The position numbers and the translations under genes are program-made. 64,000 bases of DNA, taken from Chaetoderma sp. LZ-2023a. Its lineage: Eukaryota > Mollusca > Caudofoveata > Chaetodermatida > Chaetodermatidae. Location: assembly GCA_034401795.1 (NCBI GenBank), contig CM067366.1:81318891-81382890 (forward strand), written 5' to 3'. The number at the start of each line of letters is the position of its first letter. Positions within the stretch are counted from its first letter, which is position 1. The notes under the pieces are model-generated. The model was not told the DNA's origin. It saw only the letters and a program-made list of their open reading frames with translations, and ran no database searches. Shown here piece by piece: positions 25,406-64,000 of the stretch.

Positions 25406-25407
25406 GA

Positions 25408-45054: not shown

Positions 45055-46760
45055 TACTATTTATTTCAATTTATAGTGGCGTTGAACCATTTAGTAGAGT
45101 TTGTTCTGGAGACACTTAGTTGAAGTGCCGATCAGCATCTTTGACCACAATATTACCTTGTTGGAAGTCATTAGGGACGTCTTGTGAGAGTCTCTTTATC
45201 TCTTTATCAGATAGACTGTACCCAACCTGGCATAATTGGCATGGTCATATCTGAAGAAGTAAGGTAGCATACGTCTGAATGCATAGAGGTGGAGATCCCA
45301 TAAACCATCATGTTGTGCTCTGGTAAAGCGGAGTAAGCTGCCGGCTATAGGCATGTATTGCCACCAGAGGAACTCTGCATTTGGATGCTCAACTGTCAGC
45401 AGTTTAGCAAATTCCACCATGCGCTGTTTATCCTCTCAGAAGTCAGTTTAACTACTATGAGTGCAATGTGCTCAGTCTCAAAGCACGTTCCCTCACAAGT
45501 CAGATCTGCTCTTAATGCCAGATCAACACTATCCAGATGCTCATACAGCCGTGGAAGCAATATTTGCCACAGAGCCGGAAATGTGAGTTTATGTATTTTA
45601 ATAAAGCGTGCATAACCTTTTGCAGCTACAACTTTCTGAGCAGCATTTGGACCCAAATTGTGATATTCCACCCACAGCTGACACAGTCCTCTATGTATCT
45701 CCCAGAGCACCACATTTGGAAGTTGATAGGAAGTCACCAAGTCTGGGAATTAGTACATCCGTATACTCATCCACTGCCCATTTGACTTCCATCAGCTTTG
45801 GATAAAGAGCCTCCTCCACTGTTAGAACAACATGCTGCTGTTCCATTGTTTGTGCTACATGTAATACTTGCTGTAGCACTCTGTTCAGTGTATTGAGATC
45901 ATATGCGGGAGTTTGTCTTACAGGTAGGTGCCCTACTGAAGTTTGTGCTGGACTGGTTGTGCTAGCCTTTTGGTTAAATGAAGTTCAGGTGGTCTTTAAT
46001 TTTCTTGAGATTATTGACCCATTATAAATGCCATGTCTGTTTCTTAAGGTTTGACTGTTGATGGGCATTCATCAATTGGCTGTGTGAACCATTCCACTGT
46101 AAAATCATGTGTAGATAAGTGTTCTGTGATTCCACTATTACGTGCACGTATTCATCACTTGTCATTCATCACTTCTGGAATATGAAATGTTGATACCAGA
46201 AGGTAGATTTCCATTTGGTAGACCTCTTTGATATACTGTAACTTGAGCGGCATGAAAAGTTCATTTTCCATCCAGCGTGTTCTCATTAATTTCCAAATTG
46301 TCTTTTAAAAAATGAACAAAATGTCCCGTGACCAGGTTTCGTAGAATGACAGCAACGTGATTATCCATTGTTTTCAAATTTTTTTAACATGTCCCTTGGC
46401 GGCGAATGCTTCCCATCCCGACATGTTTTGGAGTATGATATGTGTCACCACTAGCCGTGTATATTATATCCTGCGCAATGCTAAGTAATTTAGTGGGTGT
46501 GATAGTCTCACGCTTGTCATCATCCACACTATGTGCATCATGCTGTAGTAGTCGTTGGCCTCCTAACAACAGTTTTAGGCACATGTGTAGAGTGTTATGT
46601 GCACACTCTATCGCTTTATCCACACATATATCGATCTTATCAGTCTTGGCAACGAAACATACGTTTTTACCCATGTCTCTTTGGCATATGATGTGCACAT
46701 TTCAATGGCATCCACCATCACAGCTCGTTTTCCCGTCGTTATGTGACTGATTTTTGTATC
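45055..46760 (-). pseudogene. decayed Academ-like transposase fragment
   Basis: Minus-strand remnants related to the Academ protein at 5133-7295. The piece 45196-45420 contains DGLWDLHLYAFRRMLPYFF and ANYAR, which aligns with GDWQAHLSATAAMAPYFY and TNYAR of the other copy. It continues at 45060-45195 in a shifted frame with a FNQV match. The piece 45396-45740 lies just upstream of it. The piece 46384-46698 carries LLSIAQDIIYTASG and TPKHVGM, a part of the family N-terminus that the other copy lacks. The nuclease and Cys8 parts are absent: the receptor loop C exon lies where they would be. Several stops and frameshifts show an old insertion. No terminal repeats can be assigned to it. Confidence 0.62.
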
Positions 46761-47332
46761 CATAGTAGCCTAGCAAGCCAAGTTATATTACATGTGTATA
46801 TACCTGGGTAGACCCTGTCTATAACGGTACGAGTGAGATATACGTCTATCAGACACATGGACCATTTGACGACAACTTGTCGAAAGGAACACAAATCGTG
46901 TGAACCAAAATACAGGTGGGCATTATAGACAGGCTTAATTGAATTCAGCGATCACTGTTTATTCACTACAAAAGTTGCCAGTCACAAATTATCTGCTAGT
47001 TAACAATTAATTATGAGATAAATTATTAGTTTATTTTAGCAAAACATGTAGTAACATATGTTGATTATTTAATCAATTATATATTTCATTTATTTGGGGG
47101 TTTTACCGTAATTTTTTCGGGAATTATAAGGCATGATACATTTGATCGTATAGATTAGCTGAAAGTATAGACATATTTATACACCTGTATAAGATATCAT
47201 AGCAGACGACCGTGAGATAATTGTTCGACATTGATGTCAGGAATAAAAAATGCATTTTCAATAAAATTGTCACCTTCTGAAATTACCCCGGCCCATGCAT
47301 TATTATAAAAATAAATATAATGGCTATGTATT
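46761..47332. other. intron sequence, nothing recognised
   Basis: AT-rich sequence without genes or repeat ends that I can support. Confidence 0.35.
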
Positions 47333-47646
47333 AAAGGTGCATATTCACAGTAAAATTTCTAAAAATAAAATTGTTTAAACTATACAATTTTAGAGGCTTA
47401 AACTGTGAGCCTATATGTAATGAAACGAAATAAATCTTAGCATATGATGATTCCATCCCATATAAATTAATACAATTTTTTACGTTGCGAAATTGACATA
47501 GAGGCCCGTGCCTCTATTTCAATTTCTCAACTTAAAAAATTATTCCTAATATTAATACATAGGCACATAATTTAAGCTTATAAAAGTATGCAATTTTAAC
47601 AATTTTATTTTCAATCATTCTGGTGTGAATACGCACCTTTAAACTT
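47333..47646. repeat. TTAA-type foldback MITE (copy 2)
   Basis: About 315 bp with ends TTAAAGGTGCATATTCAC (about 47330) and GTGAATACGCACCTTTAA (about 47629), which are inverted repeats carrying TTAA at the outer edges. Inside it holds TAATGAAACGAAATAAATCT at 47419 and a palindromic GAGGCCCGTGCCTC near 47502. The TTAA edge resembles piggyBac-type target sites, but class assignment is open. Confidence 0.65.
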
Positions 47647-48560
47647 TTTCGATTTGAGGAATTTATTTGATTTTTCTCGGATAATATACATATAGTTCCA
47701 TTTCTTGAGTCCAACTTCCACTAAAATGTATAGTTTAAGGCTTTTAGTATTCACAAAAAATACCTTTAGACACGTAATACGCGCTAAATATAATCGCCAT
47801 TTTGAATTACGGGTTATCGGGTTAATGAGTCAAAATCGAAGCCGGCATACAGCAGACATGGATTTATCACACCTTAGTACCCCTAGTAAGCATGTATACC
47901 AGCCGTTGACACGATTTGCATCTATGGTTAACTTTTTCTGAAAACTGACCTAGTCTAGTGTTATGTACTTCTCTACTTCATACTGGGATCACGTAGTGCA
48001 CTGTATCGGTATCTTCACTCATCAGTGGCCATATTCACACATTTTGTGTGTCGCATTTCGCACATTTGTGCCATCACTAGTAGCCTACATTGGTGACGAT
48101 CGCGTCATATTGCTGGCGCATTTAACACGTGTTGCCCACCTGGCGTACTGTTGGAGCCCATCGACCGTTGGCGTCGCCCCCTTCCGCATTGGTGATATTC
48201 TTCAGGCACTGGGGCTAGTGGGTTTCTGTAGTATCTAGAGGTGCTTTGGCGTGACGGGTGGTGTCCTGGTATGATTGGTGGCGTTTCAAACATTTCTTAC
48301 ACCAAGCTTGTGGTGGCAAGTGATTTTATTATATAGACTATTGGGGTGCACACATTCATCATTTACTTATAATTTGCATATGTAAATTAATAAATGTATT
48401 AATTGTTTGATATATCTTGAGCAGTAGCATGGTCATACTTTCAAATAACGATCTGGCAGATATTTATCATTATTGTTAAGTAGTTTAGATATTATAGTTC
48501 TGGTTTGTTGGATATTGGTCCTATTTTGATTGTTGGGTTAGGAGGGTTAAGTCTAATGGC
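47647..48560. other. intron sequence, nothing recognised
   Basis: No gene, RNA or repeat end recognised. The short open frames lack domains. Confidence 0.35.
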
Positions 48561-48588
48561 GTGGCATATGACCCTTTGCCACGTGACA

Positions 48589-48589
<1 letters not shown>

Positions 48590-48620
<31 letters not shown>

Positions 48621-48634
48621 CGAATGTTGTTGTT

Positions 48635-48665
<31 letters not shown>

Positions 48666-48835
48666 TCGTTGTTGTTGTTGTTGTTGGCATCACTGTAATT
48701 CCATTTTGCTACTGCTGCAGTAGCTTCTGTCATCGTCGTCGTAGCCGCCGTTGTCGTCGTCGTTGTCGTCGTCACTGTCGTTACTGCTGTTGTTACTGTT
48801 GATGCTGCTAATGTTGTAAGCTATGATGCTGACAT
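48590..48835. repeat. (ATC)n, (GTC)n and (GTT)n trinucleotide tracts
   Basis: ATC units at 48591-48620, GTC units at about 48636-48665, and imperfect GTC/GTT units to about 48820. They give spurious poly-His, poly-Arg, poly-Asp and poly-Thr frames. Confidence 0.9.
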
Positions 48836-48850
48836 CTGTCACTTGCTCAC

Positions 48851-49024
48851 CTATATCCCCATGACCCAAATCTAAGTCTGCATTTCTGTTTGTCAAACGG
48901 AAACAGTTTTACATCCATCTTACACATTATCTCCATGAAAGCAGGGAAAAGCCAGACAATCCTGCCGTCACTGGCTACATTGACAAGATAGTGCGATTGC
49001 CGGGCATTATCATGGAACGAAATA
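48851..49024 (-). CDS. nicotinic acetylcholine receptor subunit, Cys-loop exon
   Basis: This is an internal exon of a Cys-loop ligand-gated ion channel, a pentameric plasma-membrane receptor. It encodes about 58 residues of the extracellular ligand-binding domain. They include the diagnostic loop of two cysteines 13 residues apart around a FPFD motif (CKMDVKLFPFDKQKC), preceded by IVWLFPA and followed by FGSWGY, all typical positions of acetylcholine receptor subunits. The acceptor is CAG at 49025-49027 and the donor is GTGAGC directly after 48851. The exon enters with one base completing a codon and leaves with two bases (AG). An (ATT)n run lies directly upstream of the acceptor. Earlier exons (signal peptide, N-terminal helix, loops A and D) are not seen. 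If the gene is intact they lie above 64000, which would place the Penelope array in an intron. Confidence 0.88.

Positions 49025-49027
<3 letters not shown>

Positions 49028-49070
<43 letters not shown>
49028..49070. repeat. (AAT)n microsatellite at exon acceptor
   Basis: About 14 AAT units. On the gene strand this is (ATT)n joined directly to the CAG acceptor of the Cys-loop exon. Confidence 0.95.
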
Positions 49071-49073
<3 letters not shown>

Positions 49074-49404
49074 GCACCATAGAAGTGTGATAACATAACT
49101 CACCTTACAATAATGGTAACGGTTGTGGTGTAGATGATGTTGCGTTTATTGATGCCGCTGTTGGTGGTTGTGGCGTTTGTGCTGGTGGCGGCCGTGGTGA
49201 TGGTGATGGCCGTGGTGGCCGTGGTTATATGATTAAACGCACTGGCTTAGGATCTCCCAAGGTTGGGAGATATTTTTTATTTATTTTATTGTCTGAGATT
49301 TGATATGTTTGTTTGATAGAGGCGGTATGGCCTATAAAATTTGAATAATATATATCATTCATTCTGAAGGTTTTTGAAGAGTTAATTTCGAATTAACCAA
49401 GATG

Positions 49405-51609
49405 TCACGTAGATTGGAGTTTTTTCTTAAAGGCTATCACTGGACGCAAATTGAGAGGTTTTTTCATTTTATCCTGCAATTTATGATATTCATCTTTCAA
49501 AATTTCAGAAATTTCAACATTTTTTCGATTGTATGTTAAACTGAATGGAATAATTTCACGTTGATCAGCAAGACCAGGGTCCACGTTTATGCCACTCGGC
49601 CATTTTGTTTTCAGTTGCTTAATCCAAAATGATTCTCGAAGTTTTCTTTGTTTATCAGTTTCTTCGGCCGTAGCAGAAAGAGGCAGTTGCTCAATAGGCA
49701 TAATTTCAAAGTGTCTATCGACAGAATGACCAGGAAGATTGAAATGTTGAGCTACGTTGGTGTCCTCGTCGTGTCTAATATCGCAAAGGTGTCTAGTTGC
49801 ACGCCATCTGAAAGGGCATTTTGTTTCACCGACATACTGCTTTTGGCATAATTTGCAAGATATTAAATAGATAACATTTTTAGAATCGCAATCTAAATTA
49901 GACTGAAGTTGGAATTTGCTTTTGTTCTGATAACTGACAAATGTTTTCTGATTAAGTAGATAGAGGTCTAATTTACACCTCTTCTTTCCACATTTCTGAG
50001 ATTGTCCTACGCCTATAATCGGACGATTGTGACGAATTTTGGTAGGCTTTTGATCGGCAGCCTTATCAGTAATAGTTTCCAAATCATGTAAAGTTTCGGA
50101 TTTTATTTTGCGCAAAAATCGTGTTGAATATCCCCTCGGTTTGAGGGCTTTAAATAAGGTGGAACACGCAGATTCAAAATTCTTTCTATCACTAGAATTT
50201 CGGTGAAATCGGATAATCTGTGATTTGATAATACCTTTAAAAGTATGAGGTGGATGGAAAGATTTCTTATGCAGTAGTTGATGGGAATATGTGGGCTTAA
50301 AGAATACTTTGTAATCAAGAAAGCCACTGGTGTTATAATTTACACCTTTGTAGAGAGTAACGTCCAAAAAGTCTACGGACGACTGGTCGATGTTGGCTTT
50401 AAGTCTGATGTTAGGATCGTGATTGTTCAAAATAGTGAAAAATTCATCAAACTCTTCCCTCGAATGATTCCAGATCATAAAAATATCATCGAGGTAACGG
50501 CGGTAAAATAAGGGCTGCTTAGGACATTTGTTAAGCGCATCTTCTTCCCACTCAGCTACATAGATGTTGGCAAAACTAGGACTAAAACGTTTACCCATAG
50601 CGCATCCACAGATTTGTTGGTAGATTTCGCCAGCGAATTCGAAATCATTGCCCTTTAAACTCAGCTCCAGGAGAGCTAATATTTCGCTAGTGGGCCTATT
50701 GTTATCAGGATATTTATCAAATGCTCTGCGAACAGAAGACAAACCCCTTTCGATGTCAATGTTTGTGTACATAGGATCGATGTCGAGGGTTATCAAGAGT
50801 GAGTTTGGAGGAACAGAAATTTTGGAGACCTCGGATAGGAAATCCTCAGTGTTGTTCAAAAAGCTGAAATGTCTATTCGCAATTGGTTGTAGGTGGTAAT
50901 CAATAATTTCACTAATTCGATAAGATTCAGAGCCGCAATCAGAGATAATAGGTCGACCCGGTGGTATCATAGGGTCGGACCATGACTCAATAGGTTTATG
51001 AATTTTTGGCAAAAGGTAAAACGTACGTGGATTTGAATCTCGTTTAGCAGTAAGGTATTTAAACTGCTTTTTCGTTATGGCCTTTTTGTCAGCCATTTCT
51101 TGAATGATTCCATTAAATTTATCACAATTATTTTGCCAACGTGGTTCGTCTAATTTGCGGTAGTGTTTCAGATTACTGAGTTGCCGATGTGCTTCACGAA
51201 TATAATTATCCTTACGCATTAATACAGTAGCAGATCCCTTGTCAGCAGGCTTTATAACGATGTCATTGTTTTTACGCAAACCTGTTAAGGCTAAACGTTC
51301 TTGATATGACAAATTTTGATGATTTTTAGGAAATTCTAAATTTTCAACACGCTCCTTGATAGCTTTTATACTATCAAGGATCGCAGGGTCAACCAACTTC
51401 GAGTTAGGTGCCCAGCCAGTTTTTTCAACAAAAGATAGAAAGTTGTTTTTCTTGGAATTTCGAAAAAAGTCTGCTAATTTTACACGGTGAGAAAATTCTT
51501 CAATTTCCCATAAGCCATTATCTAAAAGAGCATCTATGTCGACTTTGGGCCGTGGTGTTGGTACATATGTTAGACCAAGATTTAGCAACGATCTTTCTGC
51601 TTCAGACAA
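49405..51609 (-). CDS. Penelope-like reverse transcriptase with GIY-YIG endonuclease (unit 1)
   Basis: A 734-codon frame counted from TTG at 51609. No ATG starts it: the frame is open without a stop back to the frameshift site at 51684-51690. N-terminal signatures typical of Penelope RTs are GLTYVPTP and KPADKGSATVLM. RT motifs follow: YLLPKIHKP, GRPIISDCGS, TLDIDPMYTNI (catalytic Asp), GCAMGKRFSPSFANIY and YLDD at residues 372-375. The C-terminal GIY-YIG nuclease starts at VIYLISC (579-585), with YVGET and the arginine of FRWRATRH. Family members reverse transcribe their RNA at DNA ends or nicks made by the nuclease. In the motif-A block this copy has Pro where the other two have Ala. A sixth T near 49430 shifts the frame and replaces the last 29 residues by a shorter tail. 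Confidence 0.92.
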   Translation of the reverse strand: MSEAERSLLNLGLTYVPTPRPKVDIDALLDNGLWEIEEFSHRVKLADFFRNSKKNNFLSFVEKTGWAPNSKLVDPAILDSIKAIKERVENLEFPKNHQNLSYQERLALTGLRKNNDIVIKPADKGSATVLMRKDNYIREAHRQLSNLKHYRKLDEPRWQNNCDKFNGIIQEMADKKAITKKQFKYLTAKRDSNPRTFYLLPKIHKPIESWSDPMIPPGRPIISDCGSESYRISEIIDYHLQPIANRHFSFLNNTEDFLSEVSKISVPPNSLLITLDIDPMYTNIDIERGLSSVRRAFDKYPDNNRPTSEILALLELSLKGNDFEFAGEIYQQICGCAMGKRFSPSFANIYVAEWEEDALNKCPKQPLFYRRYLDDIFMIWNHSREEFDEFFTILNNHDPNIRLKANIDQSSVDFLDVTLYKGVNYNTSGFLDYKVFFKPTYSHQLLHKKSFHPPHTFKGIIKSQIIRFHRNSSDRKNFESACSTLFKALKPRGYSTRFLRKIKSETLHDLETITDKAADQKPTKIRHNRPIIGVGQSQKCGKKRCKLDLYLLNQKTFVSYQNKSKFQLQSNLDCDSKNVIYLISCKLCQKQYVGETKCPFRWRATRHLCDIRHDEDTNVAQHFNLPGHSVDRHFEIMPIEQLPLSATAEETDKQRKLRESFWIKQLKTKWPSGINVDPGLADQREIIPFSLTYNRKNVEISEILKDEYHKLQDKMKKPLNLRPVIAFKKKLQST

Positions 51610-51680
51610 TGTAGAACCAGTTAGGTTAATGATATTACCACCTAGGCCAATTTCTGGGTGGTTAGTACCCTGACCCGTAG

Positions 51681-52868
51681 TTAGTTTAAATTAAGGTGCG
51701 ATAACCAACTATTATACATCCTATTTGCAGTGCACTCAGTCCAGTGGATGTTGTCCTCAACCACCTGAAATTCAGACACGGGGAGGCTGGGCAGGATAGG
51801 GACCTTGGCCCTTATGGCCTCTACACGGCTGTTAACGAATTGTATGTTTCGTTTCTGGGTTGTAGTCAGGTGCTTCGAATAATTTAGTTTGGCAAAGTGA
51901 ACTTTAGCCTTTGGAAATTTTGAACGCATGGTACTAAACAGATTCTCAATTCTTTGGGAGGTGTCATGCTGAAGTTCGTCCTTATCATTAATTCCGATGT
52001 TAAGGATGATACGCTGAGGTTGGAAGACCTCATTGTGTTTTCTAACCATATTCCTAATGTGGTTTATCTTAGCACCTGGATAGATTGCTACCTGCATATC
52101 TGGATGAGGTGTCTGATTGATATGAGCTAAATTTGAAGACCCAATCAGCAGAATCTTCTTGTTCAGAGTAGGAAGGCGCCATTCATTCTTATTATCCACC
52201 ACGAACCGAAACTTGTAGAAAGACCTATGCTCTTTGGGTGTATCCCTAGGCGTAGGTTTGGGCTTAGGTGTGGGCGTAAATTTAGGTTGTGGTGGCTTGG
52301 ACCTCGGCGTCGACGATCTGGTCTTTTGACCAGGTCGGTCAGTAGCTGCTCTCTGTGGAAGGGGAGGAAACTCGACTGGGGACAGTGGCGAGACCGGAAG
52401 AGGGATCTGACTAGGATCCACATGAGCGGACACTGACGGTGACCATGCTGGCAGTGGAATCAGGAGCGGATCCACCACAGGAGACTGCAGGGGGAACACT
52501 GGTGAGCTCTGGTTATTCACCCGCTTAACTACTGGGGGAAGCTCAGTGGGTGACCTATTCCGTTTCCGATTTGATTGTGGGATGACTGGTACGGTCAAGG
52601 CTCACCGTGCAGTCGGTGTGCCTGGTAGGGCCACAGAGGGCCCTGCAGTTGATGTTCCTGGTAAGGTCACAGGTGACCCTACAGGGGGTGTTGTACTATG
52701 GTAGGTTCTAAAATGTGGATCAAAAGGTCTGATGAAATCATAAAACTGATCAATTGATGAAGAATGAAACTTCCTGCCATAGTTATTTCGGGCCCAATTT
52801 ATTGCTGTGGTCTTCGCTCTACCTAATTCTAAATTTGGTTTGGACTGAGCCTCGATGAGGAGCGACAT
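51681..52868 (-). pseudogene. SGNH-hydrolase-like ORF, unit 1 (one nonsense codon)
   Basis: The same 396-codon frame as in unit 2, but with TGA at 52602-52604 where unit 2 has TCA; the internal ATG after it leaves 305 codons. The N-terminus (SIDQFYDFIRPFDPHFR) is followed by a proline-rich linker and then the SGNH fold: IGSSNL (nucleophile Ser block), NIGINDKDE (GxND block) and EDNIHWTE (DxxH block), here with the histidine kept. Similar esterase-like domains occur in ORF1 of CR1-type LINEs. It ends LSHLNLN with the stop at 51681-51683. Confidence 0.8.
51684..51690 (-). promoter_or_regulatory. -1 ribosomal frameshift heptamer TTTAAAC, unit 1
   Basis: In the SGNH frame the last codons are AAT TTA AAC TAA, so T TTA AAC stands exactly in the X XXY YYZ phase, with the stop codon next. 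The -1 frame continues TTT AAA CTA ACT and is open into the RT. A possible downstream stem is ACCACC with GGTGGT, about 20 nt away. Confidence 0.7.
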
Positions 52869-52902
52869 AAGATGACCAAGCTGGAAATTATAGTGACTAA
52901 TG

Positions 52903-53193
52903 TTAACCTGGAGATATGGCCCATTTCAAATTTGCTGCTAAGATGTCCTTACGGACCTCGGCGTTTGGCATCGCTGGTTTACAGAAGAAATTCTGTCTCT
53001 CTAACTCTGACACTTTCCAGCTCAATCCAGGAGGCAAACTGCCCCTACGTACATGAGCATTCAAGATGCCAAGGTGGTGAAAGCATTGTATAATCATGTA
53101 GTAACACTTGGTTAGTGCAGGCTGGGCAGAAGGCGGGCGACTGTCGTTAGACCTCCTGTCATCCCGTCTTCTACTCTTGCTAACTCCAGCCAT
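52903..53193 (-). CDS. small basic ORF upstream of SGNH, unit 1
   Basis: 97 codons including the stop, from the ATG at 53193 (an in-frame GTG lies 12 codons upstream). The N-terminus is arginine- and serine-rich (KSRRRDDRRSNDSRP). A part with HVRRGSLPPGLSWKVSELER follows. The frame ends 34 nt before the SGNH ATG. The identical organisation in unit 2 (59053-59343), with only one residue changed, suggests it is coding rather than chance. I do not recognise a domain. An RNA-binding role would fit the charge but is only a guess. Confidence 0.5.
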   Translation of the reverse strand: MAGVSKSRRRDDRRSNDSRPPSAQPALTKCYYMIIQCFHHLGILNAHVRRGSLPPGLSWKVSELERQNFFCKPAMPNAEVRKDILAANLKWAISPG

Positions 53194-53449
53194 AATGTTA
53201 CTAGTTAGATAATTCAATGTTTCTGCCACTAAAATCTACAAGAATACCAAAAAATTGAGGGGACCTAATGGAATCGTGAACCTAGGGAAGTCTATCGAAT
53301 TACAAGCCTAACAAAATCTACAAGCGCATCAAAAATCTATCGCTGAAAAAAGAAGGTTATGATTAAGCATGTTAATATTTCAATAATTCATATAAACTAT
53401 CAAAGGATAATTGTGTATATTACCAATAATCCTATGCACCGTCGTGAAG

Positions 53450-53490
53450 TGGGCGACCGGTTTCGACAAGGTTTGTCAGCTTCAGGCCAC
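53450..53490 (-). ncRNA. hammerhead-ribozyme-like motif, unit 1
   Basis: The minus strand reads GTGGC, CTGAAG, a stem GACAA-ACC-TTGTC, GAAAC, a short CGG loop and GTC, then GCCCAC, which can pair with GTGGC. This is the order of a type I hammerhead with a minimal stem III, a motif known from Penelope-like elements. The core CTGANGA is imperfect: CT replaces the AA after CTGAAG. Confidence 0.45.
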
Positions 53491-54035
53491 AGAACAAATC
53501 TGCCTGTCCACCAAAAATCTGTCTATTTATTAGAATTGATGGCCTTATGGATGTGGCTTAGATTAGTATTCAATTGTACTTTGAAAATTTTTAATTGTAT
53601 TCACATTAAAGAGTTGGACTGCCACAGATGTTTAAAAACTATTGTCTAAATCCATTGACGTTGATTGAGTTCTCTAAGGTTTCTGAGTGGGCTTCCAGTA
53701 ATACTCTCATGAATGAGTGGCGGTTGATCAAAGAGATCAAGCCATGCATATTAACCCAGTGAGCTCGATTCTGTTTGTTCAGAAGGTATCCCTTTCTGAA
53801 CGAGGTTCTATTATCGGTCTGTTGATTGATCAAAGGGATCACTCAACGGTCATTAATCATTTGAACAGTGAACTCTATTTCAAAAGGTGTTGTTGGACTT
53901 TGTTTTCAAGTCTGTTGAAGTCGAATTTAGGAAAGAATATTTTTTAATTTCCAACAATTAAATAATTGTCTATAGAATTTAGACTAGTAGGATTCAAGTG
54001 TATTTGAAAGATTTAATGAGCAATATGAATTTCGA

Positions 54036-55230
54036 GTTCCTTCCATCCATCCATCCACCCACCCACCCATCCACCCACCCATCCATCGACCCACCCATCC
54101 ATCAATCCATCCATCCATCAATCCATTCAGTTAATGAAGGAAGGAGTGACAGAAGGAAGACAAATGAAGAAAGGATGGATGAAGTAAGGAAGGAAGAAAG
54201 GAAGAATGGAGGGAGGGAGGGAGGGATGGCGGGAAGGAATGAGGGTGGGACGGGGTGGGGGGCGAGGATCGATGAAGGAGGGAGGAAGGAAGGAAGGAAG
54301 GATGGATGGAAGGATGGATGGAAGGGAGTGAGGGTGGGACAGATGGTGCGAGGATCGAGGCAGGAGGGAGGGAGGGAGGAAGGAAGGAAGGAAGGAAGGA
54401 ATGAAGCAGAATGGAGGGAGGGAGGAGGGAGGGAGGGAGAAGGGAGGAAGGAAGGACAGAATGAAGGAAGGATAGACGGATGGACGGAAGGGCGGGGATG
54501 AGGGAGGGAGGAAGGATGGATGGATTGAGGAAGGAAGGAGGAAGGAAGAATGGAGGGAGGGATGGAGGGCGGGAGGAGGAAGGAAGGAATGGAGGGAGGG
54601 GGAGGGAGGGAAAGAGCGAGGAAGGAAGGAAGGAGGAAGGAAGGAAGGAAGGAAGGACGGACGGACGGACGGACGGACGGACGGGCGGCGGGCGGGCGGG
54701 AGGGAGGGAGGGAGGGAGGGAGGGAGGGATGGAGGGAAGGAGGGAAGGAGGGAGGGAGGGAGGGATGAAAGAAGGAAGGAAGGAAAGAAGGAAAGAAGGA
54801 AGGAAGGAATGTAGGACGGGTGGGAATGGGGGTGGGAATGAGGGAAGGAGTGAGGGAGGGAAGGAAGGTGGGAAGGAAGGAAGGAAGGAAGGAAGGAAGG
54901 AGGGAGGAGGGAGGAGGGAGGAGGGAGGAGGGAGGAGGGGAGGGAGGGAGGAAGGAAGGAAGGAAGGGAGGAAGGGGGTGAAGGAAGGAAGGAAGGGAGG
55001 AAGGGGGTGAAGGAAGGAAGGAAGGAAGGAATGAAGGAAGGGAGGGAGGGAGGGAGGGAGGGAATGGCGGGAATGAAGGAGGGAAGGAGGGATGGAAGGA
55101 AGGAAGGAAAGAAGGAAGGGAGGGAGGGAGGGAGCGAGGGAGGGAGGGAGCGCGCGAGCGAGCGAGGGAGGGCGGGAAGGAGGGATGGAGGGAGGGATGG
55201 AGGGAGGAAGGAAGGAGGGAAGGAAATGAT
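54036..55230. repeat. 1.2-kb purine/pyrimidine tract of unit 1
   Basis: Starts with CATC/CACC units, then GGAA, GGGA and GGAC units almost without interruption on the plus strand. The Arg/Gly/Glu-rich and Pro/Ser-rich frames over it are artefacts of the repeat. Confidence 0.93.
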
Positions 55231-55509
55231 GAACGTATCAAAACTATTGTTAAGAAGACAGACTAAATTGATGGAATGATGGTATGCCAGACAGATTTGC
55301 CACGACGGTATGGTGCAATAATTAGTGTGTTAGTAAGACAATAAAACAATAGAACTGGCACTCGCTTGTAGGTGGTTATATGATTAAACGCACTGGCTCA
55401 GGATCTCCCAAGGTTGGGAGATATTTTTTATTTATTTTATTGTCTGAGATTTGATATGTTTGTTTGATAGAGGCGGTATGGCCTATAAAATATGAATAAT
55501 ATATATCAT

Positions 55510-57759
55510 TCATTCTGAAGGTTTTTGAAGAGTTAATTTCGAATTAACCAAGATGTCACGTAGATTGGAGTTTTTCGTAAAGGCTATCACTGGACGCAAA
55601 TTGAGAGGTTTTTTCATTTTATCCTGCAATTTATGATATTCATCTTTCAAAATTTCAGAAATTTCAACATTTTTTCGATTGTATGTTAAACTGAATGGAA
55701 TAATTTCACGTTGATCAGCAAGACCAGGGTCCACGTTTATGCCACTCGGCCATTTTGTTTTCAGTTGCTTAATCCAAAATGATTCTCGAAGTTTTCTTTG
55801 TTTATCAGTTTCTTCGGCCGTAGCAGAAAGAGGCAGTTGCTCAATAGGCATAATTTCAAAGTGTCTATCGACAGAATGACCAGGAAGATTGAAATGTTGA
55901 GCTACGTTGGTGTCCTCGTCGTGTCTAATATCGCAAAGGTGTCTAGTTGCACGCCATCTGAAAGGGCATTTTGTTTCACCGACATACTGCTTTTGGCATA
56001 ATTTGCAAGATATTAAATAGATAACATTTTTAGAATCGCAATCTAAATTAGACTGAAGTTGGAATTTGCTTTTGTTCTGATAACTGACAAATGTTTTCTG
56101 ATTAGGTAGATAGAGGTCTAATTTACACCTCTTCTTTCCACATTTCTGAGATTGTCCTACGCCTATAATCGGACGATTGTGACGAATTTTGGTAGGCTTT
56201 TGATCGGCAGCCTTATCAGTAATAGTTTCCAAATCATGTAAAGTTTCGGATTTTATTTTGCGCAAAAATCGTGTTGAATATCCCCTCGGTTTGAGGGCTT
56301 TAAATAAGGTGGAACACGCAGATTCAAAATTCTTTCTATCACTAGAATTTCGGTGAAATCGGATAATCTGTGATTTGATAATACCTTTAAAAGTATGAGG
56401 TGGATGGAAAGATTTGTTATGCAGTAGTTGATGGGAATATGTGGGCTTAAAGAATACTTTGTAATCAAGAAAGCCACTGGTGTTATAATTTACACCTTTG
56501 TAGAGAGTAACGTCCAAAAAGTCTACGGACGACTGGTCGATGTTGGCTTTAAGTCTGATGTTAGGATCGTGATTGTTCAAAATAGTGAAAAATTCATCAA
56601 ACTCTTCCCTCGAATGATTCCAGATCATAAAAATATCATCGAGGTAACGGCGGTAAAATAAGGGCTGCTTAGGACATTTGTTAAGCGCATCTTCTTCCCA
56701 CTCAGCTACATAGATGTTGGCAAAACTAGGACTAAAACGTTTACCCATAGCGCATCCATAGATTTGTTGGTAGATTTCGCCAGCGAATTCGAAATCATTG
56801 CCCTTTAAACTCAGCTCCAGGAGAGCTAATATTTCGCTAGTGGGTCTATTGTTATCAGGATATTTATCAAATGCTCTGCGAACAGAAGACAAACCCCTTT
56901 CGATGTCAATGTTTGTGTACATAGCATCGATGTCGAGGGTTATCAAGAGTGAGTTTGGGGGAACAGAAATTTTGGAGACCTCGGATAGGAAATCCTCAGT
57001 GTTGTTCAAAAAGCTGAAATGTCTATTCGCAATTGGTTGTAGGTGATAATCAATAATTTCACTAATTCGATAAGATTCAGAGCCGCAATCAGAGATAATC
57101 GGTCGACCCGGTGGTATCATAGGGTCGGACCATGACTCAATAGGTTTATGAATTTTTGGCAAAAGGTAAAACGTACGTGGATTTGAATCTCGTTTAGCAG
57201 TAAGGTATTTAAACTGCTTTTTCGTTATGGCCTTTTTGTCAGCCATTTCTTGAATGAGCCCATTAAATTTATCACAATTATTTTGCCAGAGTGGTTCGTC
57301 TAATTTGCGGTAGTGTTTCAGATTACTGAGTTGCCGATGTGCTTCAGGAATATAATTATCCTTACGCATTAATACAGTAGCAGATCCCTTGTCAGCAGGC
57401 TTTATAACGATGTCATTGTTTTTACGCAAACCTGTTAAGGCTAAACGTTCTTGATATGACAAATTTTGATGATTTTTAGGAAATTCTAAATTTTCAACAC
57501 GCTCCTTGATAGCTTTTATACTATCAAGGATCGCAGGGTCAACCAACTTCGAGTTAGGTGCCCAGCCAGTTTTTTCAACAAAAAGTAGAAAGTTGTTTTT
57601 CTTGGAATTTCGAAAAAAGTCTGCTAATTTTACACGGTGAGAAAATTCTTCAATTTCCCATAAGCCATTATCTAAAAGAGCATCTATGTCGACTTTGGGC
57701 CGTGGTGTTGGTACATATGTTAGACCAAGATTTAGCAACGATCTTTCTGCTTCAGACAA
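55510..57759 (-). CDS. Penelope-like reverse transcriptase with GIY-YIG endonuclease (unit 2)
   Basis: 749 codons counted from TTG (57759), the full-length form, with the C-terminus NSNLRDILVNSKLTLQ that unit 1 has lost. RT motif A reads TLDIDAMYTNI and the catalytic motif YLDD is kept. One block differs from the others: QQIYGCAMG instead of QQICGCAMG. The GIY-YIG part (VIYLISC, YVGET, RWRATRH) and the preceding cysteine pair KCGKKRC are intact. The frame has no ATG near its start and is contiguous in the -1 frame with the SGNH ORF, so expression as a fusion is likely. Confidence 0.93.
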   Translation of the reverse strand: MSEAERSLLNLGLTYVPTPRPKVDIDALLDNGLWEIEEFSHRVKLADFFRNSKKNNFLLFVEKTGWAPNSKLVDPAILDSIKAIKERVENLEFPKNHQNLSYQERLALTGLRKNNDIVIKPADKGSATVLMRKDNYIPEAHRQLSNLKHYRKLDEPLWQNNCDKFNGLIQEMADKKAITKKQFKYLTAKRDSNPRTFYLLPKIHKPIESWSDPMIPPGRPIISDCGSESYRISEIIDYHLQPIANRHFSFLNNTEDFLSEVSKISVPPNSLLITLDIDAMYTNIDIERGLSSVRRAFDKYPDNNRPTSEILALLELSLKGNDFEFAGEIYQQIYGCAMGKRFSPSFANIYVAEWEEDALNKCPKQPLFYRRYLDDIFMIWNHSREEFDEFFTILNNHDPNIRLKANIDQSSVDFLDVTLYKGVNYNTSGFLDYKVFFKPTYSHQLLHNKSFHPPHTFKGIIKSQIIRFHRNSSDRKNFESACSTLFKALKPRGYSTRFLRKIKSETLHDLETITDKAADQKPTKIRHNRPIIGVGQSQKCGKKRCKLDLYLPNQKTFVSYQNKSKFQLQSNLDCDSKNVIYLISCKLCQKQYVGETKCPFRWRATRHLCDIRHDEDTNVAQHFNLPGHSVDRHFEIMPIEQLPLSATAEETDKQRKLRESFWIKQLKTKWPSGINVDPGLADQREIIPFSLTYNRKNVEISEILKDEYHKLQDKMKKPLNLRPVIAFTKNSNLRDILVNSKLTLQKPSE

Positions 57760-57830
57760 TGTAGAACCAGTTAGGTTAATGATATTACCACCTAGGCCAA
57801 TTTCTGGGTGGTTAGTACCCTGACCCGTAG

Positions 57831-59018
57831 TTAGTTTAAATTAAGGTGCGATAACCAACTATTATACATCCTATTTGCAGTGCACTCAGTCCAGCGGATG
57901 TTGTCCTCAACCACCTGAAATTCAGACACGGGGAGGCTGGGCAGGATAGGGACCTTGGCCCTTAAGGCCTCTACACGGCTGTTAACGAATTGTATGTTTC
58001 GTTTCTGGGTTGTAGTCAGGTGCTTCGAATAATTTAGTTTGGCAAAGTGAACTTTAGCCTTTGGAAATTTTGAACGCATGGTACTAAACAGATTCTCAAT
58101 TCTTTGGGAGGTGTCATGCTGAAGTTCGTCCTTATCATTAATTCCGATGTTAAGGATGATACGCTGAGGTTGGAAGACCTCATTGTGTTTTCTAACCATA
58201 TTCCTAATGTGGTTTATCTTAGCACCTGGATAGATTGCTACCTGCATATCTGGATGAGGTGTCTGATTGATACGAGCTAAATTTGAAGACCCAATCAGCA
58301 GAATCTCCTTGTTCAGTGTAGGAAGGCGCCATTCATTCTTATTATCCACCACGAACCGAAACTTGTAGAAAGACCTATGCTCTTTGGGTGTATCCCTAGG
58401 CGTAGGTTTGGGCTTAGGTGTGGGCGTAAATTTAGGTTGTGGTGGCTTGGACCTCGGCGTCGACGATCTGGTCTTTTGACCAGGTCGGTCAGTAGCTGCT
58501 CTCTGTGGAAGGGGAGGAAACTCGACTGGGGACAGTGGCGAGACCGGAAGAGGGATCTGACTAGGATCCACATGAGCGGACACTGACGGTGGCCATGCTG
58601 GCAGTGGAATCAGGAGCGGATCCACCACAGGAGACTGCAGGGGGAACACTGGTGAGCTCTGGTTATTCACCCGCTTAACTACTGGGGGACTCTCAGTGGG
58701 TGACCTATTCCGTTTCCAATTTGATTGTGGGATGACTGGTACGGTCAAGGCTGACCGTGCAGTCGGTGTGCCTGGTAGGGCCACAGAGGGCCCTGCAGTT
58801 GATGTTCCTGGTAAGGTCACAGGTGACCCTACAGGGGGTGTTGTACTATGGCAGGTTCTAAAATGTGGATCAAAAGGTCTGATGAAATCATAAAACTGAT
58901 CAATTGATGAAGAATGAAACTTCCTGCCATAGTTATTTCGGGCCCAATTTATTGCTGTGGTCTTCACTCTACCTAATTCAAAATTTGGTTTGGACTGAGC
59001 TTCGATGAGGAGCGACAT
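57831..59018 (-). CDS. SGNH-hydrolase-like protein (unit 2, uninterrupted)
   Basis: 395 residues from the ATG at 59018. Residues 1-60 form a conserved-looking N-terminal part. Residues 60-200 are proline- and threonine-rich, with near repeats such as GTSTAGPSVALPGTPTA. Residues 235-390 are the SGNH-type domain: GSSN at 243-246, GIND at 292-295, and DNIR at 372-375. In the last block Arg replaces the catalytic His seen in unit 1, so this copy should lack hydrolase activity. The fold is recognised by block order and spacing, as in esterase domains of CR1-like LINE ORF1. Its role in transposition is unknown even there. The stop TAA (57831-57833) follows the slippery heptamer. Confidence 0.8.
   Translation of the reverse strand: MSLLIEAQSKPNFELGRVKTTAINWARNNYGRKFHSSSIDQFYDFIRPFDPHFRTCHSTTPPVGSPVTLPGTSTAGPSVALPGTPTARSALTVPVIPQSNWKRNRSPTESPPVVKRVNNQSSPVFPLQSPVVDPLLIPLPAWPPSVSAHVDPSQIPLPVSPLSPVEFPPLPQRAATDRPGQKTRSSTPRSKPPQPKFTPTPKPKPTPRDTPKEHRSFYKFRFVVDNKNEWRLPTLNKEILLIGSSNLARINQTPHPDMQVAIYPGAKINHIRNMVRKHNEVFQPQRIILNIGINDKDELQHDTSQRIENLFSTMRSKFPKAKVHFAKLNYSKHLTTTQKRNIQFVNSRVEALRAKVPILPSLPVSEFQVVEDNIRWTECTANRMYNSWLSHLNLN
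57834..57840 (-). promoter_or_regulatory. -1 ribosomal frameshift heptamer TTTAAAC, unit 2
   Basis: Same base order and phase as in unit 1, directly before the SGNH stop. The -1 frame has no stop from here to the RT. Confidence 0.7.
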
Positions 59019-59052
59019 AAGATGACCAAGCTGGAAATTATAGTGACTAATG

Positions 59053-59343
59053 TTAACCTGGAGATATGGCCCATTTCAAATTTGCTGCTAAGATGTCCTT
59101 ACGGACCTCGGCGTTTGGCATCCCTGGTTTACAGAAGAAATTCTGTCTCTCTAACTCTGACACTTTCCAGCTCAATCCAGGAGGCAAACTGCCCCTACGT
59201 ACATGAGCATTCAAGATGCCAAGGTGGTGAAAGCATTGTATAATCATGTAGTAACACTTGGTTAGTGCAGGCTGGGCAGAAGGCGGGCGACTGTCGTTAG
59301 ACCTCCTGTCATCCCGTCTTCTACTCTTGCTAACTCCAGCCAT
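59053..59343 (-). CDS. small basic ORF upstream of SGNH, unit 2
   Basis: The counterpart of 52903-53193, with a single visible residue change (FCKPGMP for FCKPAMP). The ATG is at 59343 and the stop lies 34 nt before the SGNH ATG. No domain is recognised. Confidence 0.5.
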   Translation of the reverse strand: MAGVSKSRRRDDRRSNDSRPPSAQPALTKCYYMIIQCFHHLGILNAHVRRGSLPPGLSWKVSELERQNFFCKPGMPNAEVRKDILAANLKWAISPG

Positions 59344-59599
59344 AATGTTACTAGTTAGATAATTCAATGTTTCTGCCACTAAAATCTACAAGAATACCAA
59401 AAAATTGAGGGGACCTAATGGAATCGTGAACCTAGGGAAGTCTATCGAATTACAAGCCTAACAAAATCTACAAGCGCATCAAAAATCTATCGCTGAAAAA
59501 AGAAGGTTATGATTAAGCATGTTAATATTTCAATAATTCATATAAACTATCAAAGGATAATTGTGTATATTACCAATAATCCTATGCACCGTCGTGAAG

Positions 59600-59640
59600 T
59601 GGGCGACCGGTTTCGACAAGGTTTGTCAGCTTCAGGCCAC
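59600..59640 (-). ncRNA. hammerhead-ribozyme-like motif, unit 2
   Basis: Identical in sequence to the motif of unit 1, including stem GACAA/TTGTC and GAAAC, with the same departure from the core consensus. Confidence 0.45.
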
Positions 59641-60185
59641 AGAACAAATCTGCCTGTCCACCAAAAATCTGTCTATTTATTAGAATTGATGGCCTTATGG
59701 ATGTGGCTTAGATTAGTATTCAATTGTACCTTGAAAATTTTAAATTGTATTCACATTAAAGAGTTGGACTGCCACAGATGTTTAAAAACTATTGTCTAAA
59801 TCCATTGACGTTGATTGAGTTCTCTAAGGTTTCTGAGTGGGCTTCCAGTAATACTCTCATGAATGAGTGGCGGTTGATCAAAGAGATCAAGCCATGCATA
59901 TTAACCCAGTGAGCTCGATTCTGTTTGTTCAGAAGGTATCCCTTTCTGAACGAGGTTCTATTATCGGTCTGTTGATTGATCAAAGGGATCACTCAACGGT
60001 CATTAATCATTTGAACAGTGAACTCTATTTCGAAAGGTGTTGTTGGACTTTGTTTTCAAGTCTTTTGAAGTCGAATTTAGGAAAGAACATTTTTTAATTT
60101 CCAACAATTAAATAATTGTCTATAGAATTTAGACTAGTAGGATTCAAGTGTATTTGAAAGATTTAATGAGCAATATGAATTTCGG

Positions 60186-61415
60186 GTTCCTTCCATCCAT
60201 CCATCCACCCACCCACCCATCCACCCACCCATCCATCGACCCACCCATCCATCAATCCATCCATCCATCAATCCATTCAGTTAATGAAGGAAGGAGTGAC
60301 AGAAGGAAGACAAATGAAGAAAGGATGGATGAAGTAAGGAAGGAAGAAAGGAAGAATGGAGGGAGGGAGGGAGGGATGGCGGGAGGGAATGAGGGTGGGA
60401 CGGGGTGGGGGGCGAGGATCGATGAAGGAGGGAGGAAGGAAGGAAGGAAGGATGGATGGAAGGATGGATGGAAGGGAGTGAGGGTGGGACAGATGGTGCG
60501 AGGATCGAGGCAGGAGGGAGGGAGGGAGGGAGGGAGGGAGGGAGCGAGGAAGGAAGGAAGGAAGGAATGAAGAAGAATGGAAGGAGGGAGGGAGGGAGAA
60601 GGGAGGAAGGAAGGACAGAATGAAGGAAGGACAGACGGATGGACGGAAGGGCGGGGATGAGGGAGGGAGGAAGGATGGATGGATTGAGGAAGGAAGGAAG
60701 GAAGGAGGAAGGAAGAATGGAGGGAGGGAGGGATGGAGGGAGGGATAGAGGGCGGGAGGGAGGGAGGGAGAAGGAAGGAAGGAATGGAGGGAGGGGGAGG
60801 AGGGAAAGAGCGAGGAAGGAAGGAAGGAGGAAGGAAGGAAGGAAGGACAGACGCACGGACGGACGGGCGGGCGGGCGGGCGGGTGGGTGGGTGGGCGGGT
60901 GGGAGGGAGGGAGGGAGGGAGGGAGGGATGGAGGGATGGAGGGATGGAGGGAAGGAGGGAGGGAGGGAGGGATGCAAGAAGGAAGGAAGGAAAGAAGGAA
61001 AGAAGGAAGGAAGGAATGTAGGACCGGTGGGAATGGGGGTGGAAATGAGGGAGGGTGTGAGGGAGGGAAGGAAGGTGGGAAGGAAGGAAGGAAGGAAGGA
61101 AGGAGGGAGGAGGGAGGAGGGGAGGGAGGGAGGGAGGGAGGAAGGAAGGAAGGGAGGTAGGGAGTGAAGGAAGCAAGGAAGGAAGGGAGGGAGGGAGGGA
61201 GGGAGGGAGGGAGGGAGGGAGGGAGGGAGGGAATGGCGGGAATGAAGGAGGGAAGGAGGGATGGAGGGAGGGAAGGAAGGAAGGAAAGAAGGAAGGGAGG
61301 GAGGGAGGGAGGGAGCGAGGGAGGGAGGGAGGGAGCGCGCGAGCGAGCGAGGGCGGGCGGGAGGGAGGGAGGGATGGAGGGAGGGAGGGAGGAAGGAAGG
61401 AGGGAAGGAAGGAAA
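60186..61415. repeat. 1.2-kb purine/pyrimidine tract of unit 2
   Basis: The same unit types as 54036-55230, but with different numbers of GGAC/GGGC and GGGA units, for example a longer GGGA run at about 61180-61230. Coding frames over it are artefacts. Confidence 0.93.
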
Positions 61416-61560
61416 TGATGAACGTATCAAAACTATTGTTAAGAAGACAGACTAAATTGATGGAATGATGGTATGCCAGACAGATTTGCCACGACGGTAT
61501 GGTGCAATAATTAGTGTGTTAGTAAGACAATAAAACAATAGAACTGGCACTCGCTAGTAG

Positions 61561-64000
61561 GTGGTTATATGATTAAACGCACTGGCTCAGGATCTCCCAA
61601 GGTTGGGAAATATTTTGTATTTATTTTATTGTCTGAAATTTGATATGTTTGTTTGATAGAGGCGGTATGGCCTATAAAATATGAATAATATATATCATTC
61701 ATTCTGAAGGTGTTTGAAGAGTTAATTTCGAATTAACCAAGATGTCACGTAGATTGGAGTTTTTCTTAAAGGTTATCACTGGACGCAAATTGAGAAGTTT
61801 TTTCATTTTATCCTGCAATTTATGATATTCATCTTTCAAAATTTCAGAAATTTCAACATTTTTTCGATTGTATGTTAAACTGAATGGAATAATTTCACGT
61901 TGATCAGCAAGACCAGGGTCCACGTTTATGCCACTCGGCCATTTTGTTTTCAGTTGGTTAATCCAAAATGATTCTCGAAGTTTTCTTTGTTTATCAGTTT
62001 CTTCGGCCGTAGCAGAAAGAGGCAGTTGCTCAATAGGCATAATTTCAAAGTGTCTATCGACAGAATGACCAGGAAGATTGAAATGTTGAGCTACGTTGGT
62101 GTCCTCGTCGTGTCTAATATCGCAAAGGTGTCTAGTTGCGCGCCATCTGAAAGGGCATTTTGTTTCACCGACATACTGCTTTTGGCATAATTTGCAAGAT
62201 ATTAAATAGATAACATTTTTAGAATCGCAATCTAAATTAGACTGAAGTTGGAATTTGCTTTTGTTCTGATAACTGACAAATGTTTTCTGATTAGGTAGAT
62301 AGAGGTCTAATTTACACCTCTTCTTTCCACATTTCTGAGATTGTCCTACGCCTATAATCGGACGATTGTGACGAATTTTGGTAGGCTTTTGATCGGCAGC
62401 CTTATCAGTAATAGTTTCCAAATCATGTAAAGTTTCGGATTTTATTTTGCGCAAAAATCGTGTTGAATATCCCCTCGGTTTGAGGGCTTTAAATAAGGTG
62501 GAACACGCAGATTCAAAATTCTTTCTATCACCAGAATCTCGGTGAAATCGGATAATCTGTGATTTGATAATACCTTTAAAAGTATGAGGTGGATGGAAAG
62601 ATTTCTTATGCAGTAGTTGATGGGAATATATGGGCTTAAAGAATACTTTGTAATCACGAAACCCACTGGTGTTATAATTTACACCTTTGTAGAGAGTAAT
62701 GTCCAAAAAGTCTACGGACGACTGGTCGATGTTGGCTTTAAGTTTGCTGTTAGGATCGTGATTGTTCAAAATAGTGAAAAATTCATCAAACTCTTCCCTC
62801 GAATGATTCCAGATCATAAAAATATCATCGAGGTAACGGCGGTAAAATAAGGGCTGCTTAGGACATTTGTTAAGCGCATCTTCTTCCCACTCAGCTACAT
62901 AGATGTTGGCAAAACTAGGACTAAAACGTTTACCCATAGCGCATCCACAGATTTGTTGGTAGATTTCGCCAGCGAATTCGAAATCATTGCCCTTTAAACT
63001 CAGCTCCAGGAGAGCTAATATTTCGCTAGTGGGCCTATTGTTATCAGGATATTTATCAAATGCTCTGCGAACAGAAGACAAACCCCTTTCGATGTCAATG
63101 TTTGTGTACATAGCATCGATGTCGAGGGTTATCAAGAGTGAGTTTGGAGGAACAGAAATTTTGGAGACCTCGGATAGGAAATCCTCAGTGTTGTTCAAAA
63201 AGCTGAAATGTCTATTCGCAATTGGTTGTAGGTGGTAATCAATAATTTCACTAATTCGATAAGATTCAGAGCCGCAATCAGAGATAATAGGTCGACCCGG
63301 TGGTATCATAGGGTCGGACCATGACTCAATAGGTTTATGAATTTTTGGCAAAAGGTAAAACGTACGTGGATTTGAATCTCGTTTAGCAGTAAGGTATTTA
63401 AACTGCTTTTTCGTTATGGCCTTTTTGTCAGCCATTTCTTGAAGGATTCCATTAAATTTATCACAATTATTTTGCCAGTGTGGTTCGTCTAATTTGCGGT
63501 AGTGTTTCAGATTACTGAGTTGCCGATGTGCTTCACGAATATAATTATCCTTACGCATTAATACAGTAGCAGATCCCTTGTCAGCAGACTTTATAACGAT
63601 GTCATTGTTTTTACGCAAACCTGTTAAGGCTAAACGTTCTTGATATGACAAATTTTGATGATTTTTAGGAAATTCTAAATTTTCAACACGCTCCTTGATA
63701 GCTTTTATGCTATCAAGGATCGCAGGGTCAACCAACTTCGAGTTATGTGCCCAGCCAGTTTTTTCAACAAAAGGTAGAAAGTTGTTTTTCTTGGAATTTC
63801 GAAAAAAGTCTGCTAATTTTACACGGTGAGAAAATTCTTCAATTTCCAATAAGCCATTATCTAAAAGAGCATCTATGTCGACTTTGGGCCGTGGTGTTGG
63901 TACATATGTTAGACCAAGATTTAGCAACGATCTTTCTGCTTCAGACAATGTAGAACCAGTTAGGTTAATGATATTACCACCTAGGCCAATTTCTGGGTGG
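61561..64000 (-). mobile_element. Penelope-like element, tandem unit 3 (cut by window end)
   Basis: The 3' part of a third unit. It covers the 3' end, the whole RT/GIY-YIG frame and about 50 bp upstream of its TTG. The SGNH part and the heptamer would lie beyond 64000. It has more substitutions than units 1 and 2 have between each other. Confidence 0.88.
61699..63948 (-). CDS. Penelope-like reverse transcriptase with GIY-YIG endonuclease (unit 3)
   Basis: 749 codons from TTG (63948) with no stop. RT and nuclease motifs are kept (TLDIDAMYTNI, GCAMGKRFSPSFANIY, YLDD, VIYLISC). Differences from unit 2 include GLLEIEEFSH for GLWEIEEFSH, AHNSKLVD for APNSKLVD, VIKSADKGS for VIKPADKGS and FRDYKVFFKPIYS for FLDYKVFFKPTYS. 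The Pro to Ser change falls in the conserved KPADKGS motif of the RT N-terminus and may weaken the enzyme. The open frame across three copies suggests all stem from a recently active source. Confidence 0.92.
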   Translation of the reverse strand: MSEAERSLLNLGLTYVPTPRPKVDIDALLDNGLLEIEEFSHRVKLADFFRNSKKNNFLPFVEKTGWAHNSKLVDPAILDSIKAIKERVENLEFPKNHQNLSYQERLALTGLRKNNDIVIKSADKGSATVLMRKDNYIREAHRQLSNLKHYRKLDEPHWQNNCDKFNGILQEMADKKAITKKQFKYLTAKRDSNPRTFYLLPKIHKPIESWSDPMIPPGRPIISDCGSESYRISEIIDYHLQPIANRHFSFLNNTEDFLSEVSKISVPPNSLLITLDIDAMYTNIDIERGLSSVRRAFDKYPDNNRPTSEILALLELSLKGNDFEFAGEIYQQICGCAMGKRFSPSFANIYVAEWEEDALNKCPKQPLFYRRYLDDIFMIWNHSREEFDEFFTILNNHDPNSKLKANIDQSSVDFLDITLYKGVNYNTSGFRDYKVFFKPIYSHQLLHKKSFHPPHTFKGIIKSQIIRFHRDSGDRKNFESACSTLFKALKPRGYSTRFLRKIKSETLHDLETITDKAADQKPTKIRHNRPIIGVGQSQKCGKKRCKLDLYLPNQKTFVSYQNKSKFQLQSNLDCDSKNVIYLISCKLCQKQYVGETKCPFRWRATRHLCDIRHDEDTNVAQHFNLPGHSVDRHFEIMPIEQLPLSATAEETDKQRKLRESFWINQLKTKWPSGINVDPGLADQREIIPFSLTYNRKNVEISEILKDEYHKLQDKMKKLLNLRPVITFKKNSNLRDILVNSKLTLQTPSE

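Follow-up and report, generated by a model that had tools for sequence, protein, structure and literature searches.

A conserved slippery heptamer points to programmed −1 frameshifting between the SGNH hydrolase and reverse transcriptase frames of a putative Penelope-like element in Chaetoderma

One retroelement is present as three tandem units on the minus strand of a 64,000-nt stretch of DNA from Chaetoderma sp. LZ-2023a (assembly GCA_034401795.1, contig CM067366.1, positions 81,318,891–81,382,890 of the forward strand; hereafter, the window). The locus raises the question of how its reverse transcriptase (RT) is produced: the open reading frame (ORF) for the RT, ORF2, has no nearby ATG and opens at the very end of an upstream ORF1 with a predicted SGNH hydrolase domain. 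We consider it very probable, on comparative sequence evidence, that programmed −1 frameshifting joins the SGNH ORF1 to the RT and its endonuclease (EN) in gag-pol style. The original prediction, made from the letters of the window, had proposed the SGNH protein plus a lesser amount of an SGNH–RT–GIY-YIG fusion made by a −1 shift; this proposal is supported by the recurrence of the heptamer, its phase and the −1 arrangement across families, and by the peptides of relatives.

Both junctions in the window show ORF1 ending in ..CTT AAT TTA AAC TAA, with the slippery heptamer T TTA AAC in the phase of the SGNH frame and the stop codon adjoining it. Direct reading confirms the heptamer at 51684..51690 (copy 1; ORF1 stop TAA at 51681..51683) and the same arrangement, also claimed before, at 57834..57840 (copy 2; TAA at 57831..57833), all on the minus strand, as are the other element features given below. 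The −1 frame reads TAA|TTT AAA CTA ACT: a stop stands just before TTT, and the frame is open thereafter for 761 codons in copy 1 (ORF2 at 49405..51690, 761 aa stop to stop) and for 776 codons in copy 2 (55510..57840, 776 aa). It runs from TTT AAA into the RT without a nearby ATG, as originally read, the first ATG of copy 2 being codon 158 of the RT frame. Since the open frames of ORF1 and ORF2 overlap by only about 10 nt, there is essentially one possible place for a phase-correct site; the chance of any canonical X_XXY_YYZ heptamer at one such site, given the base composition of the window, is 0.0028.

Under the proposed mechanism, ORF1 would encode a protein with a C-terminal SGNH domain, and ORF2 the RT and GIY-YIG domains without a start codon of its own. 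Some ribosomes at the end of ORF1 would decode UUA AAC, both tRNAs would slip back to UUU AAA, and the next codon would be CUA in place of the stop; the majority would stop and release the ORF1 protein, and the remainder would yield the SGNH–RT–EN fusion. With tandem slippage the heptamer is decoded as Leu-Asn, which replaces the earlier Phe-Lys reading, and the −1 frame is entered at CTA, with a predicted junction peptide ..LNLN-LTTGQG... The fusion size of about 1170 residues given before has also been revised: both window ORF1s are broken upstream (51681..52601, 306 aa stop to stop in copy 1; 57831..59075, 414 aa in copy 2), and intact copies with an ORF1 of about 505 aa lead to a predicted fusion of about 1279 residues for a copy with open ORFs. 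The frames, the heptamer, its conservation between families and the fitting peptides are observed; from them we infer the occurrence of frameshifting, its rate and the role of the fusion.

The DNA search of the host genome gave 1534 first-look candidates, of which 40 were scored, all being about 100% identical; protein queries retrieved families B–E as well as a single decayed copy of subfamily F. TTTAAAC with TAA or TAG directly behind it, at a constant distance from the SGNH tryptophan, is kept in 81/81 fetched copies of A–F (A 35, B 26, C 9, D 1, E 9, F 1); these copies were selected by score, hence, the number of families counts and the copy number does not. The 30 copies of family A that were examined for ORF1 include one from the window; in 22 of the 30, ORF1 is open from MAGVSK.. 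to the heptamer (505 aa in 21, 501 aa in one).

Single copies of A–E were compared over the last 110 or so SGNH codons, giving proportions of synonymous differences (pS) of 0.76–0.89 and of nonsynonymous differences (pN) of 0.22–0.44; in the RT frame directly after the heptamer, pN is lower than pS in 10/10 pairs. To judge from these comparisons, purifying selection acts on both frames up to the junction. TTA accounts for 6/44 Leu codons and AAC for 23/47 Asn codons in the SGNH frames of A–E, and the probability that TTA AAC is retained in four further families despite saturated synonymous sites is about 2e-5, if these are independent; here and for the stop codon below, the P-values treat related sequences as independent. 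The first Met of the RT frame is at codon 158 in A, 47 in B, and 61 in C, and no Met occurs in the available codons of D (80) and E (62), which shows that an ATG is not conserved in this frame.

Metagenomic RT relatives were taken as the best 120 of 1290 proteins found in a first search (with copy 2 ORF2, E ≤ 0.001) and the best 120 of 4197 found in a second one, together 175 proteins; 154 of them had the alignment anchor, and the 21 without it were dropped. The junction set comprises 33 proteins whose N-terminus lies 42 to 90 residues before the anchor. Here, [FKGP]KL is seen at the junction place in 25/33 (null 3.3%): FKL in 19, KKL in 4, and GKL in 2. The query alignment of the second search (A2) was chosen for FKL; by origin, [FKGP]KL is found in 18/26 rows from the first search and in 7/7 from the second only. 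FKL, KKL, and GKL can encode UUUAAAC, AAAAAAC, and GGGAAAC, respectively, three of the four heptamers that the part of the review used here names among the shiftiest in mammalian systems (PMC5009743). FKR in P0082 and FF in P0033 and P0086, read by eye, could also be slippery. A peptide fitting any canonical heptamer is present within a 22-residue window in 30/33, a weak count given its null of 35%. Among the 64 proteins that extend 34 or more residues upstream of the anchor, FKL is found in 37, and many of the other 27 stop short of the site.

The distribution of these peptides on a tree of 56 RT cores bears on whether amino acids or nucleotides are kept. FKL P0039 and GKL P0058 are sisters (100), GKL P0020 falls in a clade with FKL P0032 and P0046 (98), and the four KKL rows form one clade (100). 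Since TTT, AAA, or GGG codons are possible in each case, the exchange of F, K, and G in the peptide points to conservation at the nucleotide level. The 11 peptide-label changes counted on the tree include the erroneous KKL label of P0021: the KKL behind it is a later, unrelated one, and P0021 is counted as lacking the site.

The predicted neighbors of the heptamer also fit. A stop directly after it is possible in 36/38 FKL rows (null 65%; about 2e-5 if independent). Four codons ahead of the heptamer (position −4), the +1 frame can hold a tryptophan codon in 29/34 (null 4.3%), a count partly fixed by the choice of start, as many predicted starts fall on the −4 codon. The rows with 16 upstream residues escape this bias at −4, and in 9/9 of them the +1 frame is compatible with the C-terminal SGNH residues W, T, A, and W. 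P0108, with FKL inside the RT and off the site, was scored as a miss in the 29/34 and excluded from the nine extensions. On the ORF1 side, the SGNH relative P0121, of the family C type, has the C-terminus ..FLNLN.

A number of observations weigh against frameshifting here or limit its reach. The codons of the metagenomic relatives are inferred from peptides, not seen, and the genomic copies retrieved are those with the best scores, hence young. No fitting peptide is present in P0015, P0021, P0114, P0117, and P0120 (5/33); W at −4 is lacking in P0012, P0026, P0089, and P0140 despite their FKL. Four scans of viral contigs gave no relative, and the prokaryote genome scan gave two contigs with relatives, L009 and L010, in bacterial assemblies (an Epulopiscium single cell and an Enterovibrio metagenome-assembled genome); both are eukaryote-like retroelement contigs and probably host contamination, by the record titles fish DNA. 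In L009, an in-phase T TTA AAC lies at 3119, and four sense codons separate it from a stop. In L010 (about 1040–1140) the −1 arrangement is kept, but the sequence is T TTA TGT, with no heptamer, and an ATG in the −1 frame overlaps the ORF1 stop (ATGTTAG), so that a switch to reinitiation is possible there. Together with the five protein relatives, L010 means that the frameshift device is not universal. Of the features whose conservation the original prediction had offered as a check, the in-phase heptamer and the −1 arrangement recur in A–F and in L009; L010 keeps the −1 arrangement and lacks the heptamer, and the 5/33 lack a fitting peptide.

The remaining features offered for that check, a conserved stem or pseudoknot downstream and synonymous constraint there, are not established. 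GGGY begins 7 nt past the heptamer in A–E, and a candidate six-pair helix GGGYCA/UGRYUC has 29/30 cells paired in these families, mostly unvarying; in copy 2 its 5' arm GGGTCA lies at 57821..57826, 7 nt after the heptamer, and the 3' arm that pairs with it at 57764..57769. The inner hairpin of the candidate structure has 75.6% of cells paired. This helix is a possible 3' stimulator, judged from the alignment. Against the expectation from frameshifting, the covariation score of the whole structure was reached by 77/500 shuffles, and the folding z-scores of six sequences (−0.47, −1.05, −1.95, +0.62, +1.10, −0.88) show no strong 3' structure. Synonymous change just past the heptamer is lower in some pairs of A–E and higher in others, i.e., constraint is not consistently raised.

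The immediate stop in A–F suggests the stop codon itself as the pause. A tentative and rather doubtful extension of the frameshifting proposal would therefore be a large Penelope-like clade with a compact −1 signal, in which the abutting stop, not a strong pseudoknot, helps to set the pause: the stop would be in the A site during slippage, and termination versus frameshifting would fix the ratio of ORF1 protein to fusion. The immediate stop in A–F, its possible presence in 36/38 FKL relatives and the lack of strong 3' structure favor this, whereas the stop four codons on in L009 and the possible helix 7 nt downstream speak against it as a rule.

Other explanations of the junction have to be set against programmed frameshifting. 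ORF2 might be translated independently, by termination–reinitiation or by internal initiation near the ORF1 stop. Termination–reinitiation coupling is known in non-LTR (long terminal repeat) elements, and the ATG overlapping the ORF1 stop of L010 would suit it; however, no RT-frame ATG occurs within 60 nt of the heptamer in A–E, and both the heptamer and the change from FKL to KKL or GKL are left unexplained, and independent translation is very unlikely. A spliced mRNA could instead fuse ORF1 to ORF2 with no recoding, as introns have been reported in Penelope elements (PMC3846280, in the part used) and family A carries a TACTAAC that resembles a branch point, together with a CAG, just downstream. 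TACTAAC is missing in C, D, and E, the constraint on the ORF2 protein starts just after the heptamer, and the conserved heptamer would have no explanation; we regard splicing as extremely improbable.

The conserved nucleotides might also serve for RNA recognition or templating where the RT ORF begins, and have nothing to do with recoding. For the Anolis Poseidon element, the RNA that is required in vitro reportedly contains the initial 172 nt of the ORF (PMC11167929); by analogy, such a requirement could also constrain the region downstream of the heptamer, and an RNA site may fit the GGGYCA stretch. The phase relative to ORF1, the −1 arrangement and the changes that fit TTT, AAA, and GGG are not explained by it, and as an account of the junction it is very unlikely. 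Finally, the heptamer could be a chance occurrence in decayed copies, ORF1 and ORF2 being two genes that happen to abut. The broken ORF1 of both window copies would agree with this, but the 22/30 copies of family A with ORF1 open to the heptamer, and the recurrence of the site in other families and in relatives, leave chance with next to no probability.

The identity of ORF1 rests on distant matches and on a model. Pfam Lipase_GDSL_2 matches copy 1 ORF1 at E 0.0022, under its cut-off, and the Pfam SGNH matches of relatives are likewise below cut-off. A profile of five relatives matches 4c1b, the ORF1 esterase of ZfL2-1, at E 1.9e-6. In copy 2 the SGNH hydrolase domain was placed at 57834..58376 by structure model, fold matches, family profile, and alignment: the model (predicted local distance difference test, pLDDT, 86.5) has platelet-activating factor (PAF) acetylhydrolase fold matches at E about 1e-8 with TM-score 0.7, and a poor fold match to 4c1b_B (TM-score 0.47–0.50). 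The catalytic blocks GSSN/GASN/GDSN, GIN, and D..H are aligned, with the exceptions of Arg for the block V His in window copy 2 (DNIRW; copy 1 has DNIHW) and N..Q in P0101. By fold and catalytic blocks, the C-terminus of ORF1 is a predicted SGNH hydrolase domain. P0101 itself (951 aa, metagenomic) reads SGNH and RT in one frame, which suggests, from this single sequence, that one ORF can encode both domains in the fused order. A fused one-frame family among genomic matches to the P0101 query was considered and rejected, as every listed match with a start ahead of query residue 190 contains one or more stops; L091, the match that was read, is a copy carrying an additional base past the heptamer.

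For ORF2 of the window there was no Pfam RVT_1 match, and RT matches in NCBIfam were weak; the GIY-YIG domain of copy 2 (residues 605–695, 55756..56028) has Pfam E 0.00029 and 21.5 bits against a cut-off of 22.6. Relatives exceed the Pfam cut-offs, P0003 for RVT_1 and P0097 for both RVT_1 and GIY-YIG, and through them ORF2 is judged to be an RT. The RT and a C-terminal GIY-YIG domain in one ORF, and the tandem copies, are Penelope-like traits. The RT motifs, which we take to be Penelope-like as well, are one part of the class assignment; the element is accordingly called putatively Penelope-like by domain order, tandem copies and these motifs. A hammerhead ribozyme was not found by Rfam over 46000–64000, nor did a loose core pattern find one anywhere in the window. 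Such ribozymes are reported in other Penelope-like elements (PMC11167929, in the part used); in the pseudo-LTR (pLTR) they are common but not universal in this class, and we treat them as non-defining.

Known systems share some traits with the junction and differ in others. Retroviruses, coronaviruses, and LTR retrotransposons, with gag-pol and the U_UUA_AAC of infectious bronchitis virus (IBV) as examples, are alike in the in-phase canonical heptamer and in an upstream ORF product that is presumably in excess (PMC5009743, in the portion used); retroviral and LTR gag-pol are also alike in the −1 RT ORF downstream. The present element differs from them in that it is Penelope-like by the above assignment, its stop directly adjoins the heptamer, which gives an overlap of about 10 nt in the window, and a pseudoknot is not established. 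With Penelope, Poseidon, and Neptune elements it shares the RT and C-terminal GIY-YIG in one ORF and the tandem copies; these elements, relatives of telomerase, have been described as having a single ORF in their canonical form, whereas the RT here has no ATG and lies in −1 behind an SGNH ORF (PMC11167929, as far as used).

An SGNH ORF1 is held in common with the CR1/L2/RTEX non-LTR elements that have an esterase ORF1 protein (ZfL2-1); esterase ORF1s have already been reported in Penelope-like elements (PMC3905857), with no frameshift mentioned in the part used. The Athena elements (Terminons) of bdelloid rotifers likewise have GDSL/SGNH ORF3s with Penelope-like RTs, but are endonuclease-deficient, telomere-associated and equipped with several extra ORFs (PMC5408684, in part). 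Frameshifting is known in LTR elements and in Drosophila HeT-A, a non-LTR element that is said to need it for a gag-like gene and encodes no RT, and the word Penelope is absent from the 300,000 of 475,107 characters covered of the same review (PMC5009743). Literature searches gave no report of frameshifting in Penelope-like elements, leading to a review on retrotransposon targeting and to titles that do not mention it, which does not by itself show its absence from print; within the literature searched, a well-established recoding mechanism would here operate in a class of retroelements for which −1 frameshifting is not known. If true, a Penelope-like branch would have a gag-pol-like strategy, with the ORF1 protein in excess and a rarer ORF1–RT–EN fusion, and the production of an RT without a start codon would be accounted for; annotators would more readily recognize complete elements that at present appear in pieces or truncated, and a directly searchable fusion protein is predicted.

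The tandem units themselves are spaced about 6.15 kb apart. Unit 1 (49405–53400) contains the copy 1 junction, and unit 2 (55556–59550), 99.2% identical to it, that of copy 2. The two copies originally described are joined by a third unit, of which the ORF2 part only is present (61745..64000, 99.0% identity to copy 1), the window ending before its junction; the count of two junctions stands. Unit pairs spaced 6–7 kb are also found elsewhere in the host genome. A GGAA/CCTT-type microsatellite of roughly 1.2 kb lies inside each tandem unit (53300–55700 and 59450–61889) and seems to be part of the unit, as the inter-ORF stretches of two units are 93.4% identical. Elsewhere in the window, 23292–30291 reads as a Gypsy-like element: zinc knuckles mark its gag-like ORF, an RRKR|GLFNF stretch its env-like ORF, and pol-like ORFs are also present. 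The minus-strand open stretches 16536–20164 and 35400–38048 resemble pieces of LINE-type elements.

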